From a virus: 24,312 nucleotides of DNA. Positions within the stretch are counted from its first letter, which is position 1. Every line of letters begins with the position of its first letter. The translations under genes and the position numbers were made by a program. The DNA is taken from IMG/VR virus record IMGVR_UViG_3300042381_000461, positions 1 through 24,312 of that record; one strand, 5' to 3'. Below are positions 2-23,074 of the stretch, one piece after another. Below the pieces are notes generated by a model. That model was not told the DNA's origin. It saw nothing but the letters and a program-made list of their open reading frames with translations, and did no database searches.

Positions 2-262
2 TCACTTGCCATTTTTGTTCTTTCGTGGCTGCATCAACCTTGCTTGGATCTGCCTGATCGTTACCCTGATCAAACTGGGTGCAATATCGCTAGGCTTTTC
101 AATGATTTCAATAATCAGATAACCTGCTGAAACCACATATAAACCAGTGATGCCCTGATAATGCCAGTGATTATCCTTCCCTAAGGATACCCCAGCTTTG
201 ATGGCATCTCCAAACAGTAGAGATTGAGTCCAGCTAGGATGCAATTCAAAGTGAATAACCAT
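2..262 (-). CDS. Small hypothetical protein downstream of tail fibre
   Basis: This is a complete 86-residue protein; its TGA stop lies at the very edge of the window. The ATG is preceded by AAAGGA at seven bases, a good Shine-Dalgarno, and the gap to the upstream fibre gene is only 28 bases, so it is probably in the same late operon. It has a mixed N-terminal half with several Trp, His and Gly residues, a hydrophobic stretch near residues 41-54 (LYVVSAGYLIIEII), and a basic tail ending RKNKNGK. The hydrophobic stretch is short and could be a beta strand rather than a membrane segment. I do not recognise the family. Position after the fibre genes would suit a tail accessory or a first lysis-module gene, but nothing in the sequence shows either. 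Confidence 0.7.
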   Translation of the reverse strand: MVIHFELHPSWTQSLLFGDAIKAGVSLGKDNHWHYQGITGLYVVSAGYLIIEIIEKPSDIAPSLIRVTIRQIQARLMQPRKNKNGK

Positions 263-290
263 GGTTGAATCCTTTAAGGCGGGGGTGGGG

Positions 291-11974: not shown

Positions 11975-11984
11975 AAGTATTTTT

Positions 11985-12007
11985 CCTTGAAAAAGAGTTC
12001 TTCAAGG
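11985..12007 (-). promoter_or_regulatory. Hairpin containing the capsid gene ribosome-binding site
   Basis: On the minus strand CCTTGAA (12007-12001) pairs perfectly with TTCAAGG (11991-11985), with a nine-base loop. The 3' arm holds the AAGG of the capsid Shine-Dalgarno (AAGGA), ten bases before the ATG at 11974. When folded it would hide most of the ribosome site. The inverted repeat is seen; control of translation is inferred. Confidence 0.55.
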
Positions 12008-12015
12008 TGCCCGCA

Positions 12016-12061
12016 TACGCAGTGGCACCATGCCGGAATGCTCCGGTGGCCACCATGCGTA
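12016..12061 (-). other. Long imperfect hairpin in the capsid leader
   Basis: TACGCA-GTGGC (12016-12026) pairs with GCCAC and TGCGTA (12049-12053 and 12056-12061), and inside it CCGGA (12033-12037) pairs with TCCGG (12042-12046) around an ATGC loop. This gives 16 pairs broken by small internal loops. It has no U-tract after it, so it is not a simple terminator. It could stabilise the capsid mRNA 5' end or bind a protein. Confidence 0.5.
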
Positions 12062-12082
12062 AATACTGCAAGGCTTCCCCCA

Positions 12083-12109
12083 TTTTTACATGGGTTGGAA
12101 ATGTGTCAA
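12083..12109 (-). promoter_or_regulatory. Candidate capsid gene promoter
   Basis: A perfect TTGACA lies at 12109-12104 on the minus strand, followed after 15 bases by TAAAAA (12088-12083), four of six matches to TATAAT. The spacing is two bases short of ideal. It lies about 110 bases before the capsid ATG and downstream of the terminator at 12250-12280, where a new promoter is needed if the terminator is efficient. Confidence 0.35.
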
Positions 12110-12173
12110 ATCGTATGGAATGAAGGAAAAGACCGCATGCTGAATGGCTAGAAACAAGTGCTTTAATTGATGA

Positions 12174-12246
12174 TCACGCAATTAGGTTCGGGATCATGAA
12201 CTAAGGATGTGGCTTAGTTCAGGGAAATGGCTTTGCGTGAACTAAG
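12174..12246 (-). repeat. Three TGAACTAAG-type boxes and a nested inverted repeat before the capsid gene
   Basis: TGAACTAAG occurs at 12197-12205 and 12238-12246, and its exact reverse complement at 12213-12221. In the minus transcript the middle box can pair with either the first (16-base loop) or the third (7-base loop), but not both. An outer pair TCACGCAA (12174-12181) with TTGCGTGA (12233-12240) overlaps the first box. The pattern fits either DNA operator sites for a dimeric regulator or an RNA with mutually exclusive folds. Repeats are seen directly; function is inferred. Confidence 0.6.
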
Positions 12247-12249
12247 AAC

Positions 12250-12280
12250 AAAAAAAGCCCCTAGGGATTAGCTAGGGGCT
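12250..12280 (-). terminator. Intrinsic terminator after the membrane protein gene
   Basis: On the minus strand AGCCCCTAG (12280-12272 read as its complement arm) and CTAGGGGCT form a perfect nine-pair GC-rich stem with a seven-base loop, followed directly by seven T residues (12256-12250). It lies 18 bases after the stop of the membrane protein gene and before the capsid leader. It would separate upstream from capsid transcription unless antiterminated. Confidence 0.9.
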
Positions 12281-12297
12281 GATGAATGTGGTGGGGC

Positions 12298-12558
12298 TTA
12301 CCTTAACCAAGAGATATTGCTTTTAAGGTAAATATAAACAGGGGACAATATAAGAAAGACAATAAAACCTGCAATGAATATTAGAACCACCCGAATACAC
12401 AATCCAATTAAATGACCCATGTTTTGTGGTGGTGCTGGTGCCTTGTTCTGATTAGCCATCGTTGCATAGATCACATGAAGGGGTATGGTTATGAACAACC
12501 CAAAGAATCCGCACATGAATGCCAGAAAGTGAAGCACAATAAAAACAGCATGACCCAT
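12298..12558 (-). CDS. Small two-helix membrane protein (moron-like)
   Basis: An 86-residue protein with two predicted membrane helices: about residues 4-32 (VFIVLHFLAFMCGFFGLFIT and following) and 49-77 (HLIGLCIRVVLIFIAGFIVF and following), joined by a polar Asn/Pro/Gln linker at 33-48 (NQNKAPAPPQN). There is a short polar C terminus. GAGGA lies seven bases before the ATG. It sits between the prohead protease and capsid genes, which are normally adjacent, and it ends in a strong terminator, so it looks like a separately controlled insertion. Superinfection exclusion, host surface change or holin-like activity are possible, but no family is recognised. A hairpin covers its start codon. Confidence 0.72.
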   Translation of the reverse strand: MGHAVFIVLHFLAFMCGFFGLFITIPLHVIYATMANQNKAPAPPQNMGHLIGLCIRVVLIFIAGFIVFLILSPVYIYLKSNISWLR

Positions 12559-12594
12559 GGTTCCATCCTCAGTTAGAGAGTAATGAAACCATGG
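12555..12594 (-). promoter_or_regulatory. Hairpin burying the start codon of the membrane protein
   Basis: On the minus strand CCATGGTTTCAT (12594-12583) pairs with ATGGAACCATGG (12566-12555) over 12 pairs, one of them U-G, with a 16-base loop. The ATG start (12558-12556) lies inside the 3' arm and the GAGG ribosome site at the loop/stem border. This would repress translation until opened. A second small hairpin, AGATATC/GGTATCT, lies just before it at 12599-12618. Confidence 0.55.
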
Positions 12595-12621
12595 TAGCAG
12601 ATACCTTTTGCGATATCTAAA

Positions 12622-13191
12622 TTATTTAATCTTAAGTATCTGCACTAGATTCATTCTCTTTTGAATCTCCATCTCTCGTTCATGCTCTAGCTCTTGATAG
12701 TACTGCAAAGATCTCAATCCTATTTCAGTATTTAAATAGGCTGGATAGGTTACTGCGCTGACATCATGCAAATCGACATCGAGCAGGGTTCTGATGTTCT
12801 TATCCCCTTCTTTATCCCAGCTATCTTTTTTGGTGATGAATGCGAATGACATCTGGGTAACATCACCTCGGCTCATCGAAACCATGAGATCCCTTGCATA
12901 GCTGGTGTCAGGTGGGGTGATCTCAACCAACAACCCCTCAGAGTCCACTGTAAGATTAAGTGTGCCACTGGTGGATCTACCTAGGATTAAATTTTGGTCA
13001 TGGTTAATCAAAGCCCTGACATCTGCACCCTGTGCCAATGACCTTGTGAAAGCTTTAGGGTCAATCTGTTCAAGGAATCCACCCAGATCCTGTGACCTGT
13101 TGGGGCTGAACTTGGCAGCATAGCCCACTAGCTTTTTTCCATCTTGCTCTACCCTAAATTCTGTGGTGAATCGTGTTTCTAGTTTAACCAT
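12622..13191 (-). CDS. HK97-family prohead protease
   Basis: A 189-residue serine protease that would remove the capsid delta domain and then itself during prohead maturation. Family marks: LVGYAAKFSP at residues 21-30, DPKAFTRSL at 44-52, the INHD segment with probable catalytic His64, LVEITPPDTSYARDL, and QMSFAF with probable nucleophile Ser115, then LLDVDLHDVSAVTYPAY, which typically carries the third active-site residue region. Length is normal. It overlaps the portal gene by 13 bases; its ATG has GGGAG about eight bases upstream. The C-terminal 29 residues are charged and helical, consistent with a scaffold-binding or self-cleavage tail. Confidence 0.93.
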   Translation of the reverse strand: MVKLETRFTTEFRVEQDGKKLVGYAAKFSPNRSQDLGGFLEQIDPKAFTRSLAQGADVRALINHDQNLILGRSTSGTLNLTVDSEGLLVEITPPDTSYARDLMVSMSRGDVTQMSFAFITKKDSWDKEGDKNIRTLLDVDLHDVSAVTYPAYLNTEIGLRSLQYYQELEHEREMEIQKRMNLVQILKIK

Positions 13192-15032
13192 GTGACTTTC
13201 TCCCAGTTAGCTTTGGTATCGATCCAGTTCTTAAGTTTCTCATCGGCCAAAAGTTTTAGATTTCTAGGTGTGGCTGATCCAGCTAAGTCTAACCATTCAG
13301 CCTTCAATGCTTCACAGTGATCTGCAGCAGCTCGGACACCACCACCCGATTCCGGCTGAATGAATTCAAGGACAGGTTCAAGGATGATCTGCACCCTTTC
13401 CTGATGGGCTTCCAAAAACTTTTCTAAGGCTGGGATGAATTCCCCAGGCTTATTGCTGATCCTTCCCAAATGGTTTGCTTCAATCTTTCTGATTTGTTTT
13501 CTGGCAGCTTCTAACAACTTAGCAAAGCCAAAGCTGTTTTGTTGTGGTGCAGGGATTGGATCGGGTGTGGGTGGGGTAATCTTCAGACCTGAGAAGATGG
13601 AATCCAAAATAGTCTGATCCAGAAATGGGAATGATGCTAGGGCAATAGCCTTGGCCGATTCCATTGGTATTAAACCTTCACCAACCTTAGCCACTAGATC
13701 GACTAACGATGTGATCTGTGCGCCATTTAAAGCTGTTGCTGCCACATCTGCGGTGGGTGGTGCTATTGGTGCTGGGATTGGATCGGGTGTGGGTGGGGTT
13801 GGCATCTGGCCTAAAGTTTTTGCCTGGTCTACTGCTGCTGGTGTTTGTCCTGGTCCAAACGCAGGATCCATATTCTTTGGTACCATGTAGGCATCACCAC
13901 CTTCAAAGGGTGGTAGGTTCTCCAATGCTCTCACATCATTTCTAGATAACCATCCCCAACTAAGCGCACTAGCATAAAATGCTGATCTGCCTGCGGTGTC
14001 ACCCCTAAGTAATGCATCTTGATTATGCTCTGCATAAAGCTGGTCCAGCGAGCTTATCAACTTGAAGTTAATTTCCTGCTCCCATCGGATTAACCATGGT
14101 CTCAAAGTTTCCTGAAGGAATGCTAGGTTGTCCTGTTCTAAACTGCTGTAAGTTCCTGCACCTGCTCCTATTTTGCTGGCTGGAATCTTGAACCACCTAG
14201 CCACTTCTTGAAGTTGAAACTGCCTAGAGGCTATCCACTGTGCATCATCGGGTGGGGTTCCTATGGTCTGATAGGTTACACCATTTTGCAATATCGCTAC
14301 TCGATGTGCATTCTTAACAGTCGCATGCATATCCTCCCATGATTTCCGCATGTTCTGGATAGCTTCTGAATTAAGCTTGCCAGGAACGCTGATGACCCCA
14401 GCAGGTTTTCCACCTTGACCAAAGAAGGTTGAGCCGAATTCTTCTACAGCCATTCCAAGACCGATTGAATTTTTAGCCTGGGCAATTACTGAGTACCCTT
14501 TCACACCGTCAAAGCTTAGACCCTTGATGTGCAAAATCTCTGAGGGTAAAAAGATCACTGATCCGTATTTGTAAAACAGTTCGCCATTCTCATCTCGCAC
14601 AGGTTCAACCTGTGAAGGATCGAGTGGCCAGAGTTGTTGCACTCTCCCAGAGTTTTTATCCCTGACTATTTCTGCATAGCCATTACCCCAAACGAGCGAA
14701 TGCCCCATGAGGGTTTCACGAAAAGTTAAGGCACTCATTTCTGGGTTTGGCTGATCGTGCAGGATTCTATAAATAGGATGATCATTAGCCTTTGATCTTG
14801 AACCATCATGACCCCTGCGGAATACTTGCAATGGCAGACTGGCAACACCTTCAGAGATAGCCCTGACTGCTGCCCACACTGCGGAATAAGTCATCGATGA
14901 TGCTTGATTAACATTCTGGCCAGTGGTAGAAATGCCTGTGTAGGTCCAAGATCCAGAGTCGGTAACCAAACTATAGCCAGCTAATTTGTTGATGGTGTTT
15001 GCAAAGAGGGATCTGATGGATTTAAAAGGCAT
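13179..15032 (-). CDS. Portal protein, HK97 family, with long C-terminal extension
   Basis: A 617-residue protein whose first 390 or so residues match HK97-type portals: SAVWAAVRAISEGVASLPLQV, HPIYRILHDQPNPEMSA, LVWGNGYAEIVRD, QLWPLDPSQVEPV, HIKGLSFDGVKGYSV, FFGQGGKPAGVISVPG and EVARWFKIPASKIGAG. The dodecamer would be the DNA gate and terminase dock. The family is usually about 400-450 residues. Here the extra C-terminal part has a proline linker (PPTPDPIPAP) used twice, an NGAQITSLVDLVAKVGEGLIP-type helical module of about 50 residues between them, and about 120 further residues. Similar NGAQ modules occur in some other portals (known from phage families). The start is four bases after the terminase stop, without a clear Shine-Dalgarno, so coupled translation is likely. 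Confidence 0.93.
   Translation of the reverse strand: MPFKSIRSLFANTINKLAGYSLVTDSGSWTYTGISTTGQNVNQASSMTYSAVWAAVRAISEGVASLPLQVFRRGHDGSRSKANDHPIYRILHDQPNPEMSALTFRETLMGHSLVWGNGYAEIVRDKNSGRVQQLWPLDPSQVEPVRDENGELFYKYGSVIFLPSEILHIKGLSFDGVKGYSVIAQAKNSIGLGMAVEEFGSTFFGQGGKPAGVISVPGKLNSEAIQNMRKSWEDMHATVKNAHRVAILQNGVTYQTIGTPPDDAQWIASRQFQLQEVARWFKIPASKIGAGAGTYSSLEQDNLAFLQETLRPWLIRWEQEINFKLISSLDQLYAEHNQDALLRGDTAGRSAFYASALSWGWLSRNDVRALENLPPFEGGDAYMVPKNMDPAFGPGQTPAAVDQAKTLGQMPTPPTPDPIPAPIAPPTADVAATALNGAQITSLVDLVAKVGEGLIPMESAKAIALASFPFLDQTILDSIFSGLKITPPTPDPIPAPQQNSFGFAKLLEAARKQIRKIEANHLGRISNKPGEFIPALEKFLEAHQERVQIILEPVLEFIQPESGGGVRAAADHCEALKAEWLDLAGSATPRNLKLLADEKLKNWIDTKANWEKVTWLN
13546..13799 (-). repeat. Direct repeat pair encoding PPTPDPIPAP linkers in the portal
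   Basis: Positions 13546-13577 and 13768-13799 are identical at 31 of 32 bases. Both encode the same proline-rich linker in the same frame, and they flank the NGAQ-type module. The near identity at DNA level, unlike the rest of the gene, suggests recent duplication or gene conversion. Recombination between them would delete 222 bases, 74 codons, in frame. Confidence 0.85.
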
Positions 15033-20540: not shown

Positions 20541-20560
20541 TTATGACACTCTTTAGTTAT

Positions 20561-20582
20561 GGGTGGGGTAATTCCCCCACCC
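20561..20582 (-). other. GC-rich hairpin in the 119-base gap before the HNH gene
   Basis: GGGTGGGG (20561-20568) pairs perfectly with CCCCACCC (20575-20582), with a six-base loop. No T-run follows on either strand, so a simple intrinsic terminator is unlikely. The rest of the gap (20583-20659) could form a small stem CCTCA/TGAGG (20620-20624 with 20638-20642) enclosed by CACTG/CAGTG. The hairpin lies about 20 bases before the HNH ATG and could affect its expression. Confidence 0.6.
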
Positions 20583-20659
20583 TGTGATAAAAACCCACTG
20601 CAAAGTTTAACCAGCCTTGCCTCACTCCCAGGTAGGATGAGGTGACCCAGTGCAATGGA

Positions 20660-21821: not shown

Positions 21822-22415
21822 TTAGAATTTTAAAATCTTGCGGGTACATTTCTTGCAGAAATATTTAACACCCACTTCAGCAGGGAATTCCAGCCATTCC
21901 TTTTGATTAAGCCACATCTCAAGGTCTGTGATCGACCAGAAGTGTGGGCTGGTTTTAACGCACTCAGAGCAGGTAGCATCGTAAAGGATGTAACTGGCAC
22001 GAAAATAAATACAGACAGAATGAGTGGCTAGGCTAACGATCAGTTGATCCTTAAGCTCAGCCTTCAGAACATCCCACCCCTCAACAAAGGACAGGGGTTG
22101 ACCATAGCCAAGTTCCCAGGGCTTTGCTCCTAGGCAGGTCATCTGGGTAGCCCAGAGTTTGAGTCCATCCATGTCGGTGATCGTCATGGGGTAGAGAATG
22201 TTTAGTCCATCATTCACCCCACCCTGCACCTGTGCGAGCAGATCAAAGCTTACATGACCATGGCGCAGAGTAACCACCATGTTCTGCACTTTCAGGATGT
22301 GCTTGGAACATTCATTTTCCAGCATGATGTTGGCAAGTTTTGCTACAGTTTCAATACTGGGTTCTTGCTGAAAGTCCGATGGAAAACTGGTGTTCCCTAG
22401 TTCGATCAGATCCAC
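21822..22415 (-). CDS. Unknown protein with C-terminal zinc-ribbon-like Cys pairs
   Basis: A 197-residue protein I do not recognise. The C-terminal 50 residues hold C149-x2-C152 (CSEC) and C188-x2-C191 (CKKC) about 36 residues apart, as in a zinc ribbon. The middle is mixed alpha/beta, including LRHGHVSFDLLAQVQG and VEGWDVLKAELKDQLIVSLA. The start is GTG at 22415, supported by GGAGG eight bases upstream, and not by any upstream ATG. It follows the structured intergenic region, whose 3' end lies about 25 bases before this start, so this gene is the most likely target of any control from it. DNA binding is inferred only from the Cys pairs. Confidence 0.7.
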   Translation of the reverse strand: MDLIELGNTSFPSDFQQEPSIETVAKLANIMLENECSKHILKVQNMVVTLRHGHVSFDLLAQVQGGVNDGLNILYPMTITDMDGLKLWATQMTCLGAKPWELGYGQPLSFVEGWDVLKAELKDQLIVSLATHSVCIYFRASYILYDATCSECVKTSPHFWSITDLEMWLNQKEWLEFPAEVGVKYFCKKCTRKILKF

Positions 22416-22439
22416 TTTAAAATCCTCCGTGATATAAAA

Positions 22440-22512
22440 TCAGGCTGGTCAGTTCTGACAACAAGTCAGGTGTGTTACTGGCCGTATATCTCATATGGCA
22501 TAACCAGCCTGA
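22440..22512 (-). ncRNA. Candidate structured RNA with three stems (branched fold)
   Basis: A perfect ten-pair outer stem, TCAGGCTGGT (22440-22449) with ACCAGCCTGA (22503-22512), encloses two hairpins: CTGAC/GTCAG (22455-22459 with 22465-22469, five-base loop) and GCCGTAT/ATATGGC (22481-22487 with 22493-22499, five-base loop, one G-T pair on the plus-strand reading). The total of 73 bases is tRNA-like in size, but tRNA landmarks are missing. On the minus transcript it is followed by TTTTATAT and then GGAGG of the next gene. The stems are read directly; being a functional RNA is inferred. Confidence 0.5.
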
Positions 22513-22529
22513 AGCGCATGAATATTATT

Positions 22530-22555
22530 GCTGCTGTTGGGTGGGTGACAGCAGC
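22530..22555 (-). other. Hairpin next to the branched element
   Basis: GCTGCTGT (22530-22537) and ACAGCAGC (22548-22555) form a perfect eight-pair stem with a ten-base loop rich in G on the plus strand. It lies 17 bases from the branched fold, on the side first transcribed. There is no T-run, so it is not a standard terminator. The remaining gap 22556-22606 holds only a weak ACCC/GGGT stem. Confidence 0.6.
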
Positions 22556-22606
22556 CCCATCAAAAGGTCTCGGAGCATGAGTTACCCCGCCACCCCTAAT
22601 GGGTAT

Positions 22607-23074
22607 CTAAAAGGGCAGGTCATCTTCTGATGCTGCTGGTTGGATGCTGTCCGCACTCAAGGCCATCAGAGTGATATTCTTGTACTGCCCATTGGTATCT
22701 CTTCTAAAACTCAGGGTCTTGCCCCGCATCGCTAGCCCTGCCTTATCCATTTCAACCAGGTAGGGTCGGTCAAACATCGGCCCCCACTGCGGAACATCAA
22801 AACCAATTTTCTGCAAATTGATTAAGCAGCGTTTCATGTTGGCATCAGAGGCTAGCCAGTAGCTGATCTGCACAGACTTGCCATTCACCACCAGGTTAAT
22901 CTCAAAGACCTTTTGTTTCCCTGAGGGTGTGACAGGGGAACTGACCTCTTTAATCCATGCGTTTTCAACCCTACCAAGGTAGGTGCCATCCTCTAGGTCA
23001 GAAGCTTTGGTGCTTCTAAAATTAGAATCCAGATCCACTTGCTTTTCATAATCGGGTTCACCAGATACAGTCAT
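22607..23074 (-). CDS. Single-stranded DNA-binding protein candidate with SSB-type acidic tip
   Basis: A 155-residue protein ending SEDDLPF, the acidic-hydrophobic tip that bacterial and phage SSB proteins use to recruit partners (E. coli SSB ends DDDIPF). The body has alternating beta-like segments (GTYLGRVENAWIKEV, QKVFEINLVVNGKSVQISYW, GKTLSFRRDTNGQYKNITLM), compatible with an OB fold, and aromatic residues that could stack on bases. It is shorter in linker than bacterial SSB and not an obvious member of the classic family. It lies between the Gp157 gene (TAATG overlap) and the structured gap, within a recombination cluster, which supports the role. Confidence 0.7.
   Translation of the reverse strand: MTVSGEPDYEKQVDLDSNFRSTKASDLEDGTYLGRVENAWIKEVSSPVTPSGKQKVFEINLVVNGKSVQISYWLASDANMKRCLINLQKIGFDVPQWGPMFDRPYLVEMDKAGLAMRGKTLSFRRDTNGQYKNITLMALSADSIQPAASEDDLPF

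Follow-up and report, generated by a model that had tools for sequence, protein, structure and literature searches.

Results

An RNA fold behind an SSB-like gene

The window analysed here is a 24,312-nt stretch of viral DNA (IMG/VR record IMGVR_UViG_3300042381_000461, positions 1 to 24,312). Its minus strand carries an operon with genes for an SSB-like protein, a protein in the RecT position, Gp157 and a replication protein. Directly behind the SSB-like gene lies an intergenic gap that holds a structured RNA, and behind that a gene with a GTG start (Table 1). The zinc ribbon assigned to this downstream gene corresponds to two CxxC pairs recognized by eye; its protein matched no Pfam family at the cut-off. 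The upstream protein has no family in Pfam or PHROG. Its AlphaFold model (pLDDT 76.6) gave as the best Foldseek match the ssDNA-binding protein PrgE of pCF10 (E 1.6e-5, with TM-scores of only 0.40-0.47), followed by RPA/SSB OB folds. The DDLPF ending of the protein is one that we take to resemble the acidic tips of SSBs.

Table 1. Positions of the genes, the RNA element and its parts in the window
Feature	Position	Strand	Description
Upstream gene	22607-23074	-	OB-fold ssDNA-binding-like protein ending in DDLPF (AlphaFold and Foldseek)
Intergenic gap	22416-22606	- (operon strand)	191 nt
Whole conserved three-domain RNA element	22436-22604	-	169 nt in the window and 163-173 nt in relatives; scored 173.8 bits (E 1e-47) by covariance model R1; 28 distinct homologues with covariation
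Domain 1 (D1)	22556-22603	-	Stem P1 CCCAUUAGGG/CCUUUUGAUGGG, internal loop GGGGUGGC, inner stem-loop P1b; from the fold
GGGUGG	22590-22595	-	Proposed pseudoknot, 5' strand; identical in 28/28
Domain 2 (D2)	22530-22555	-	Perfect 8-bp hairpin GCUGCUGU/ACAGCAGC; invariant loop (C)ACCCACCCA
CCACCC in the domain 2 loop	22539-22544	-	Proposed pseudoknot, 3' strand; identical in 28/28
Domain 3 (D3)	22440-22512	-	73-nt three-way junction; closing stem P3 of 10-12 bp
Hairpin P3a of the domain 3 junction	22481-22499	-	Loop UGAGA, kept in 27/28
Hairpin P3b of the domain 3 junction	22455-22469	-	CUGAC UUGUU GUCAG
GGAGG	22424-22428	-	Ribosome-binding site of the downstream gene; read from the sequence
Downstream gene	21822-22415	-	GTG start and two CxxC pairs; relatives may have one of 10 other families instead

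The minus strand of the gap, folded at its full 191 nt, reached -68.7 kcal/mol versus -50.1 +/- 4.4 kcal/mol in dinucleotide shuffles (z = -4.2; 0 of 200 shuffles as good), and the plus strand folded more weakly (z = -2.3). Domain 3 alone, folded as 75 nt, gave -29.8 versus -15.0 kcal/mol (z = -5.3; again 0 of 200). The gap, the 73-nt branched fold with its two enclosed hairpins and the perfect hairpin of 8 bp described in the first-pass annotation were thus all recovered, on the minus strand, and beat the shuffles. The element is larger than that description, which had overlooked domain 1. This domain starts 2 nt past the upstream stop codon and is built on a 10-bp stem, P1, with an inner stem-loop; with it, the gap is structured throughout except for a leader of about 20 nt before the next gene. 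In the window, the domain 2 loop reads CACCCACCCA, and P3 is a perfect 10-bp stem with 2 further pairs that encloses the hairpins P3a and P3b. The fold ends 11 nt before the GGAGG, not about 15 as had been estimated.

ARAGORN called no tRNA or tmRNA in the gap, in agreement with the earlier statement that the fold is not a tRNA. No terminator-like site was found in the element and no U tract follows its stem, so that an intrinsic terminator was rejected and the earlier remark on the lack of an ordinary terminator tail holds. The bases 3' of P3 vary among members (GAUUUUAU, GAUAUUAAAAAC, GAUAUUUAAAA), with no conserved U tract; ordinary U-tract terminators occur elsewhere in these phages, at about 250-286 in contig L098 and about 12250-12280 in the window. 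A search for a promoter of the element's own found none: the sole 9/12 match lies inside domain 2, is tied to one stem haplotype, and such matches were no more frequent than in shuffles. We also rejected a coding role for the gap, in which internal ORFs span 8-57 aa and the frames shift between members.

The element is conserved in related viral contigs and its stems covary

Homologues were sought with the upstream protein first, which led to 12 viral contigs, and then with DNA patterns and protein alignments. All 12 of these first contigs keep the whole gap, but only half carry the same gene behind it. In total, the element occurs in at least 43 related viral contigs, including the window, as 28 distinct elements with identity down to 62%. 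A covariance model, R1, built from 22 sequences, detected six distinct diverged elements outside its training set with 113-141 bits. Each of the 15 contigs tested whole carries a single copy, and the second, weak matches in these contigs were the same site on the opposite strand. Many matches to loose DNA patterns (most of L060-L081, L118, L203 and L204) were due to chance and were discarded by sequence reading or by R1.

Over the 28 sequences, 99.1% of 1086 cells in 39 pairs are standard pairs. Changes on both sides were seen in 17 of the 39 pairs and in 94 cells, compared with shuffled means of 9.6 and 24.5, respectively (0 of 500 as high), and pairing fell to 20-44% when partners were slid out of register. 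The 28-sequence alignment was fitted to the model and is therefore biased toward the structure; an earlier sequence-only alignment of 22 sequences agrees with it (99.9% paired, 11 pairs with double changes, 0 of 500). A covariance model combined with compensatory changes in homologues was the very check that the first-pass annotation had proposed, and its outcome is strongly positive.

Double changes are found in all three domains. They affect 4 of the 5 pairs of P1b, where one position appears as A-U, C-G, G-C and U-A. The sixth pair of P1 is U-G, C-G or U-A, and inner P1 (columns 8-11) is weak in diverged members, with G-U pairs and a mismatch. The domain 2 stem has double changes in 5 of its 8 pairs (GCUGCUGU/ACAGCAGC, GCUGUCAG/CUGACAGC, GAUGCUG/CAGCAUC). 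In P3, all cells are paired and 4 of 11 pairs show double changes (e.g. AUCAGGCUGG/CCAGCCUGAU and AUUGGGCUGG/CCAGCCCAAU). P3a occurs as GCC..GGC, GGCA..UGCC, GCCA..UGGC and UCC..GGA, read by eye in the 28 sequences, and P3b has changed on both sides in 4 of 5 pairs (CUGAC/GUCAG, CUUGC/GCAAG, CGAAC/GUUCG, UUGAC/GUCAA).

On the operon-sense strand there are 95 G-U cells versus 1 A-C cell, and pairing on the opposite strand drops to 90.4% of cells. Moreover, the sense fold is more stable than the antisense fold in 28 of 28 elements. The selected molecule is therefore RNA of the operon strand. We regard it as practically certain that this part of the window encodes a real, conserved structured RNA.

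Invariant bases suggest a pseudoknot between domains 1 and 2

All 28 elements have the same GGGGUGG(C) in domain 1 and the same ACCCACCC in the loop of domain 2. A 6-bp duplex of GGGUGG with CCACCC would yield -10 to -12 kcal/mol, versus a loss of 1.6-9.4 kcal/mol from the competing inner P1 pairs. We infer from invariance and energy that a pseudoknot joins domains 1 and 2 through these strands, and that it is a better partner for GGGGUGG than inner P1 is; since both strands are invariant, covariation between them is impossible. As a separate observation, the 70-72-nt gaps of relatives that have no element hold one plain hairpin, GGGUGG...CCACCC (L131, 5656-5726; L133, 5678-5748; L137, 3277-3345). 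The recurrence of the same strands there may be due to chance.

The element stays in place while its neighbours are exchanged

In 43 of 43 contigs, an OB-fold SSB-like gene precedes the element, its stop codon lying 1-5 nt away. The proteins encoded there, all ending in LPF, fall into four families when clustered at 60% identity; these phages have at least four mutually diverged versions, with about 40% identity. The position behind the element is a hotspot of gene swapping: across the 43 contigs it holds 11 unrelated families of first genes (HTH-like, ParB-like, DUF6378, zinc-ribbon and unknowns), which start 19-58 nt after the element when three contigs with a spurious overlapping start are left out. 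The zinc-ribbon gene follows directly in 9 of the 43, and in L018 its homologue stands one gene further down.

The tree of the elements requires 12 changes of SSB type (12.2 when shuffled) and 19 changes of downstream gene (20.4 when shuffled). It is thus unlinked to either neighbour, and the element travels independently of both; the elements of L019 and L033 are identical, and SSBs of about 40% identity share near-identical elements. Contigs L131-L133 and L137 encode the RecT-position protein, Gp157, SSB and the zinc-ribbon protein in the same order, with a gap of 70-72 nt and no element. The element is therefore accessory and not essential to the operon. In addition, since the zinc-ribbon gene is exchanged behind the element and also occurs without it, the element is not the leader of that gene.

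The element matches no known RNA family

No match in Rfam 15 overlapped the element, either at the gathering threshold or at E values up to 10, in line with the first-pass annotation, which knew of no named class with this layout. Nor did GenBank phages and plasmids yield any DNA match to it; the plasmid matches were of 25 bp at E 0.5. We considered a TPP riboswitch (RF00059), whose pyrimidine-sensor half resembles the local string GGGGUGG..CUGAGAUACC in domain 1 of many members. This candidate was rejected: Rfam gave no match at E up to 10, the GAGA side is lost in some members (GGGUUUC in L098, GGGUUUUC in L138), and there is no pyrophosphate-sensor helix.

A scan of a genome collection with the domain 2 pattern gave 12 matches, all due to chance, and none with domain 1 or domain 3; thus, no prophage or host copy was found in that collection. 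We also looked for hosts with a profile of the RecT-position protein. Among the 289 genomes in the phylum of a Verrucomicrobia-group record (G016) it had no match, and among the 294 in that of a Planctomycetes record (G533) it had one; the contig of G533 has no element. Terminase matches, at about 44-46% identity to phages of Gram-positive hosts, are uninformative on the host. In L031, a gene judged by eye from its translation to be tyrosine-recombinase/integrase-like (12344-13288, minus strand) lies upstream of the gene in the RecT position, so that some of these phages may be temperate.

Other structures in these phages

The first-pass annotation had called the operon otherwise gap-free; gaps of 119, 124 and 323 nt are also present. 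The 119-nt gap, behind a DUF6378 gene (20541-20659, minus strand), holds a second conserved fold, consisting of a branched stem CCAUUGCA/UGCAGUGG, then GGGUUUUUAU and a hairpin GGGUGGGG/CCCCACCC. Compensatory changes were seen in 4 of its pairs across 16 sequences (the window and 15 relatives); L102 and L120 swap the inner domain and keep the outer stem, and Rfam gave no match above chance. The 323-nt gap (11975-12297, minus strand) immediately precedes the major head protein gene; in it are a canonical terminator, GCCCCUAGCUAAUCCCUAGGGGCUUUUUUU, and additional predicted structure. In L098, a U-tract terminator-like hairpin (192-288, plus strand) upstream of recombination genes matched Qrr below the threshold (E 0.04), most likely by chance on a terminator.

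Discussion

In the early operon of these phages, the OB-fold SSB-like gene is flanked on its 3' side by a non-coding, three-domain RNA of about 163-173 nt. Without a match in Rfam 15 or in GenBank phage and plasmid DNA, it is a new RNA family among the structured non-coding RNAs of phages. That it is kept behind ssb while its neighbours are swapped indicates that the RNA probably has a function of its own.

The reading we prefer, with a probability of roughly 0.4, is that the RNA acts in cis within the operon transcript as a gene-neutral element, similar to the put and EAR RNAs; its indifference to its neighbours combined with its fixed place suggests such an early-transcript element. Having neither promoter nor terminator of its own, it is presumably co-transcribed with ssb in the early mRNA. 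The RNA would fold once the ribosome, whose footprint includes P1, leaves the ssb stop codon, and domains 1 and 2 would probably be locked by GGGUGG-CCACCC. The folded RNA could then act on any downstream sequence. The likeliest route would be either to modify the transcribing RNA polymerase, in the manner of put and EAR RNAs (processive antitermination or anti-pausing), or to set the processing and stability of the transcript. This would secure expression of the exchanged accessory genes and of the replication genes further down, regardless of their identity. HK022 put, the best-studied gene-neutral example, works in cis on terminators as far as 10 kb away and needs no dedicated protein (PMC9378689). 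The single copy per contig at one fixed operon site, without its own promoter or a conserved U tract, argues for action in cis, and the four SSB families upstream and 11 gene families downstream argue for gene-neutrality. On the other hand, put RNAs are about 70 nt long and lie near early promoters as putL and putR, whereas our element is single, about 170 nt long and lies mid-operon. Moreover, L131-L133 and L137 manage the same gene order without it, and its many invariant unpaired bases would equally fit an RNA acting in trans.

Nearly as likely as the cis-acting reading is a trans-acting small RNA, cut from the early mRNA as the ssb 3'UTR or escaping as a stable fold, that would target a host protein, a host RNA or a defence system in the manner of an accessory "moron" RNA. 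Its independence of both neighbours, its presence or absence among close relatives and the many loop bases that stay invariant next to stems with strong covariation are all consistent with this, and a phage ncRNA of about 100 nt processed from the 3'UTR at the 3' end of PHIKZ298 offers a precedent (PMC8545117). However, the element was found only directly behind ssb, and it has neither promoter nor terminator of its own. We consider it rather unlikely that the element founds a new class of accessory trans-acting phage RNAs, in which a three-domain, pseudoknotted RNA released behind ssb would bind and block or redirect a host factor (e.g. a defence system, a nuclease or RNA polymerase) as a swappable module in many phages.

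The constant partner of the element is the ssb-like gene, which could point to a 3'UTR element that is bound by the OB-fold protein in a feedback loop or that shields the ssb mRNA from 3' exonucleases, as has been proposed for the L17 downstream element (PMC2864571). Yet the element tree does not track the four SSB families, SSBs as different as about 40% identity share near-identical elements (L019 and L033 have the same one), and the relatives without the element carry an SSB nonetheless, which makes regulation of this gene improbable. We give still less weight to a function at the DNA level: a replication origin, single-strand origin or recombination hotspot that folds as ssDNA would suit a replication/recombination operon and the mosaic boundary with its 11 alternative genes, and would explain the gene swapping behind it, but the excess of G-U over A-C cells on one strand fits RNA and not DNA hairpins, some relatives lack the element, and flanking homology can serve gene swapping. 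Least probable of all is one of the roles offered by the first-pass annotation, in which a leader RNA would sense a ligand or protein to control the zinc-ribbon gene. The element does lie 23 nt before that gene in the window, but the exchange of the downstream gene, for 10 other families elsewhere, already largely refutes this reading, and an alternative fold that would sequester the ribosome-binding site was not found.

Structured RNAs in long early or operon transcripts that could serve any downstream gene, independent of its identity, are represented by HK022 put and EAR (the epsC motif), and the cis-acting reading places our element beside them. Put differs in having two stem-loops in about 70 nt and two copies near early promoters (PMC9378689), compared with three domains, including a three-way junction, in a single copy behind ssb. 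Rfam, which covers epsC/EAR, gave no match, and put is set apart by its published description (PMC9378689). The L17 downstream element (RF01708) is likewise a conserved structured RNA directly 3' of one gene, with its strand set by G-U pairs and its function unknown (PMC2864571); our element has no Rfam match, occurs in phages and has further genes read downstream. It shares with the L17 type a constant place behind one gene family, but it neither co-evolves with that gene nor is universally present beside it. The PHIKZ298 ncRNA also lies directly past a stop codon in a phage and has no promoter of its own (PMC8545117), but it consists of about 100 nt with two stem-loops, the second possibly a terminator, whereas our element has no U-tract terminator.

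Taken together, our results add a well-supported, uncatalogued family to the small set of phage structured RNAs, and the model R1, with 28 distinct sequences, can serve others in searches. The genetics of the family is unusual in that the RNA stays while the genes on both sides are exchanged. Relatives that naturally lack the element exist, and with operons of both kinds at hand its function is directly testable by deletion and comparison. Should the element turn out to be a gene-neutral antiterminator, it would account for the ability of these phages to keep exchanging accessory genes and still express the part of the operon that follows.
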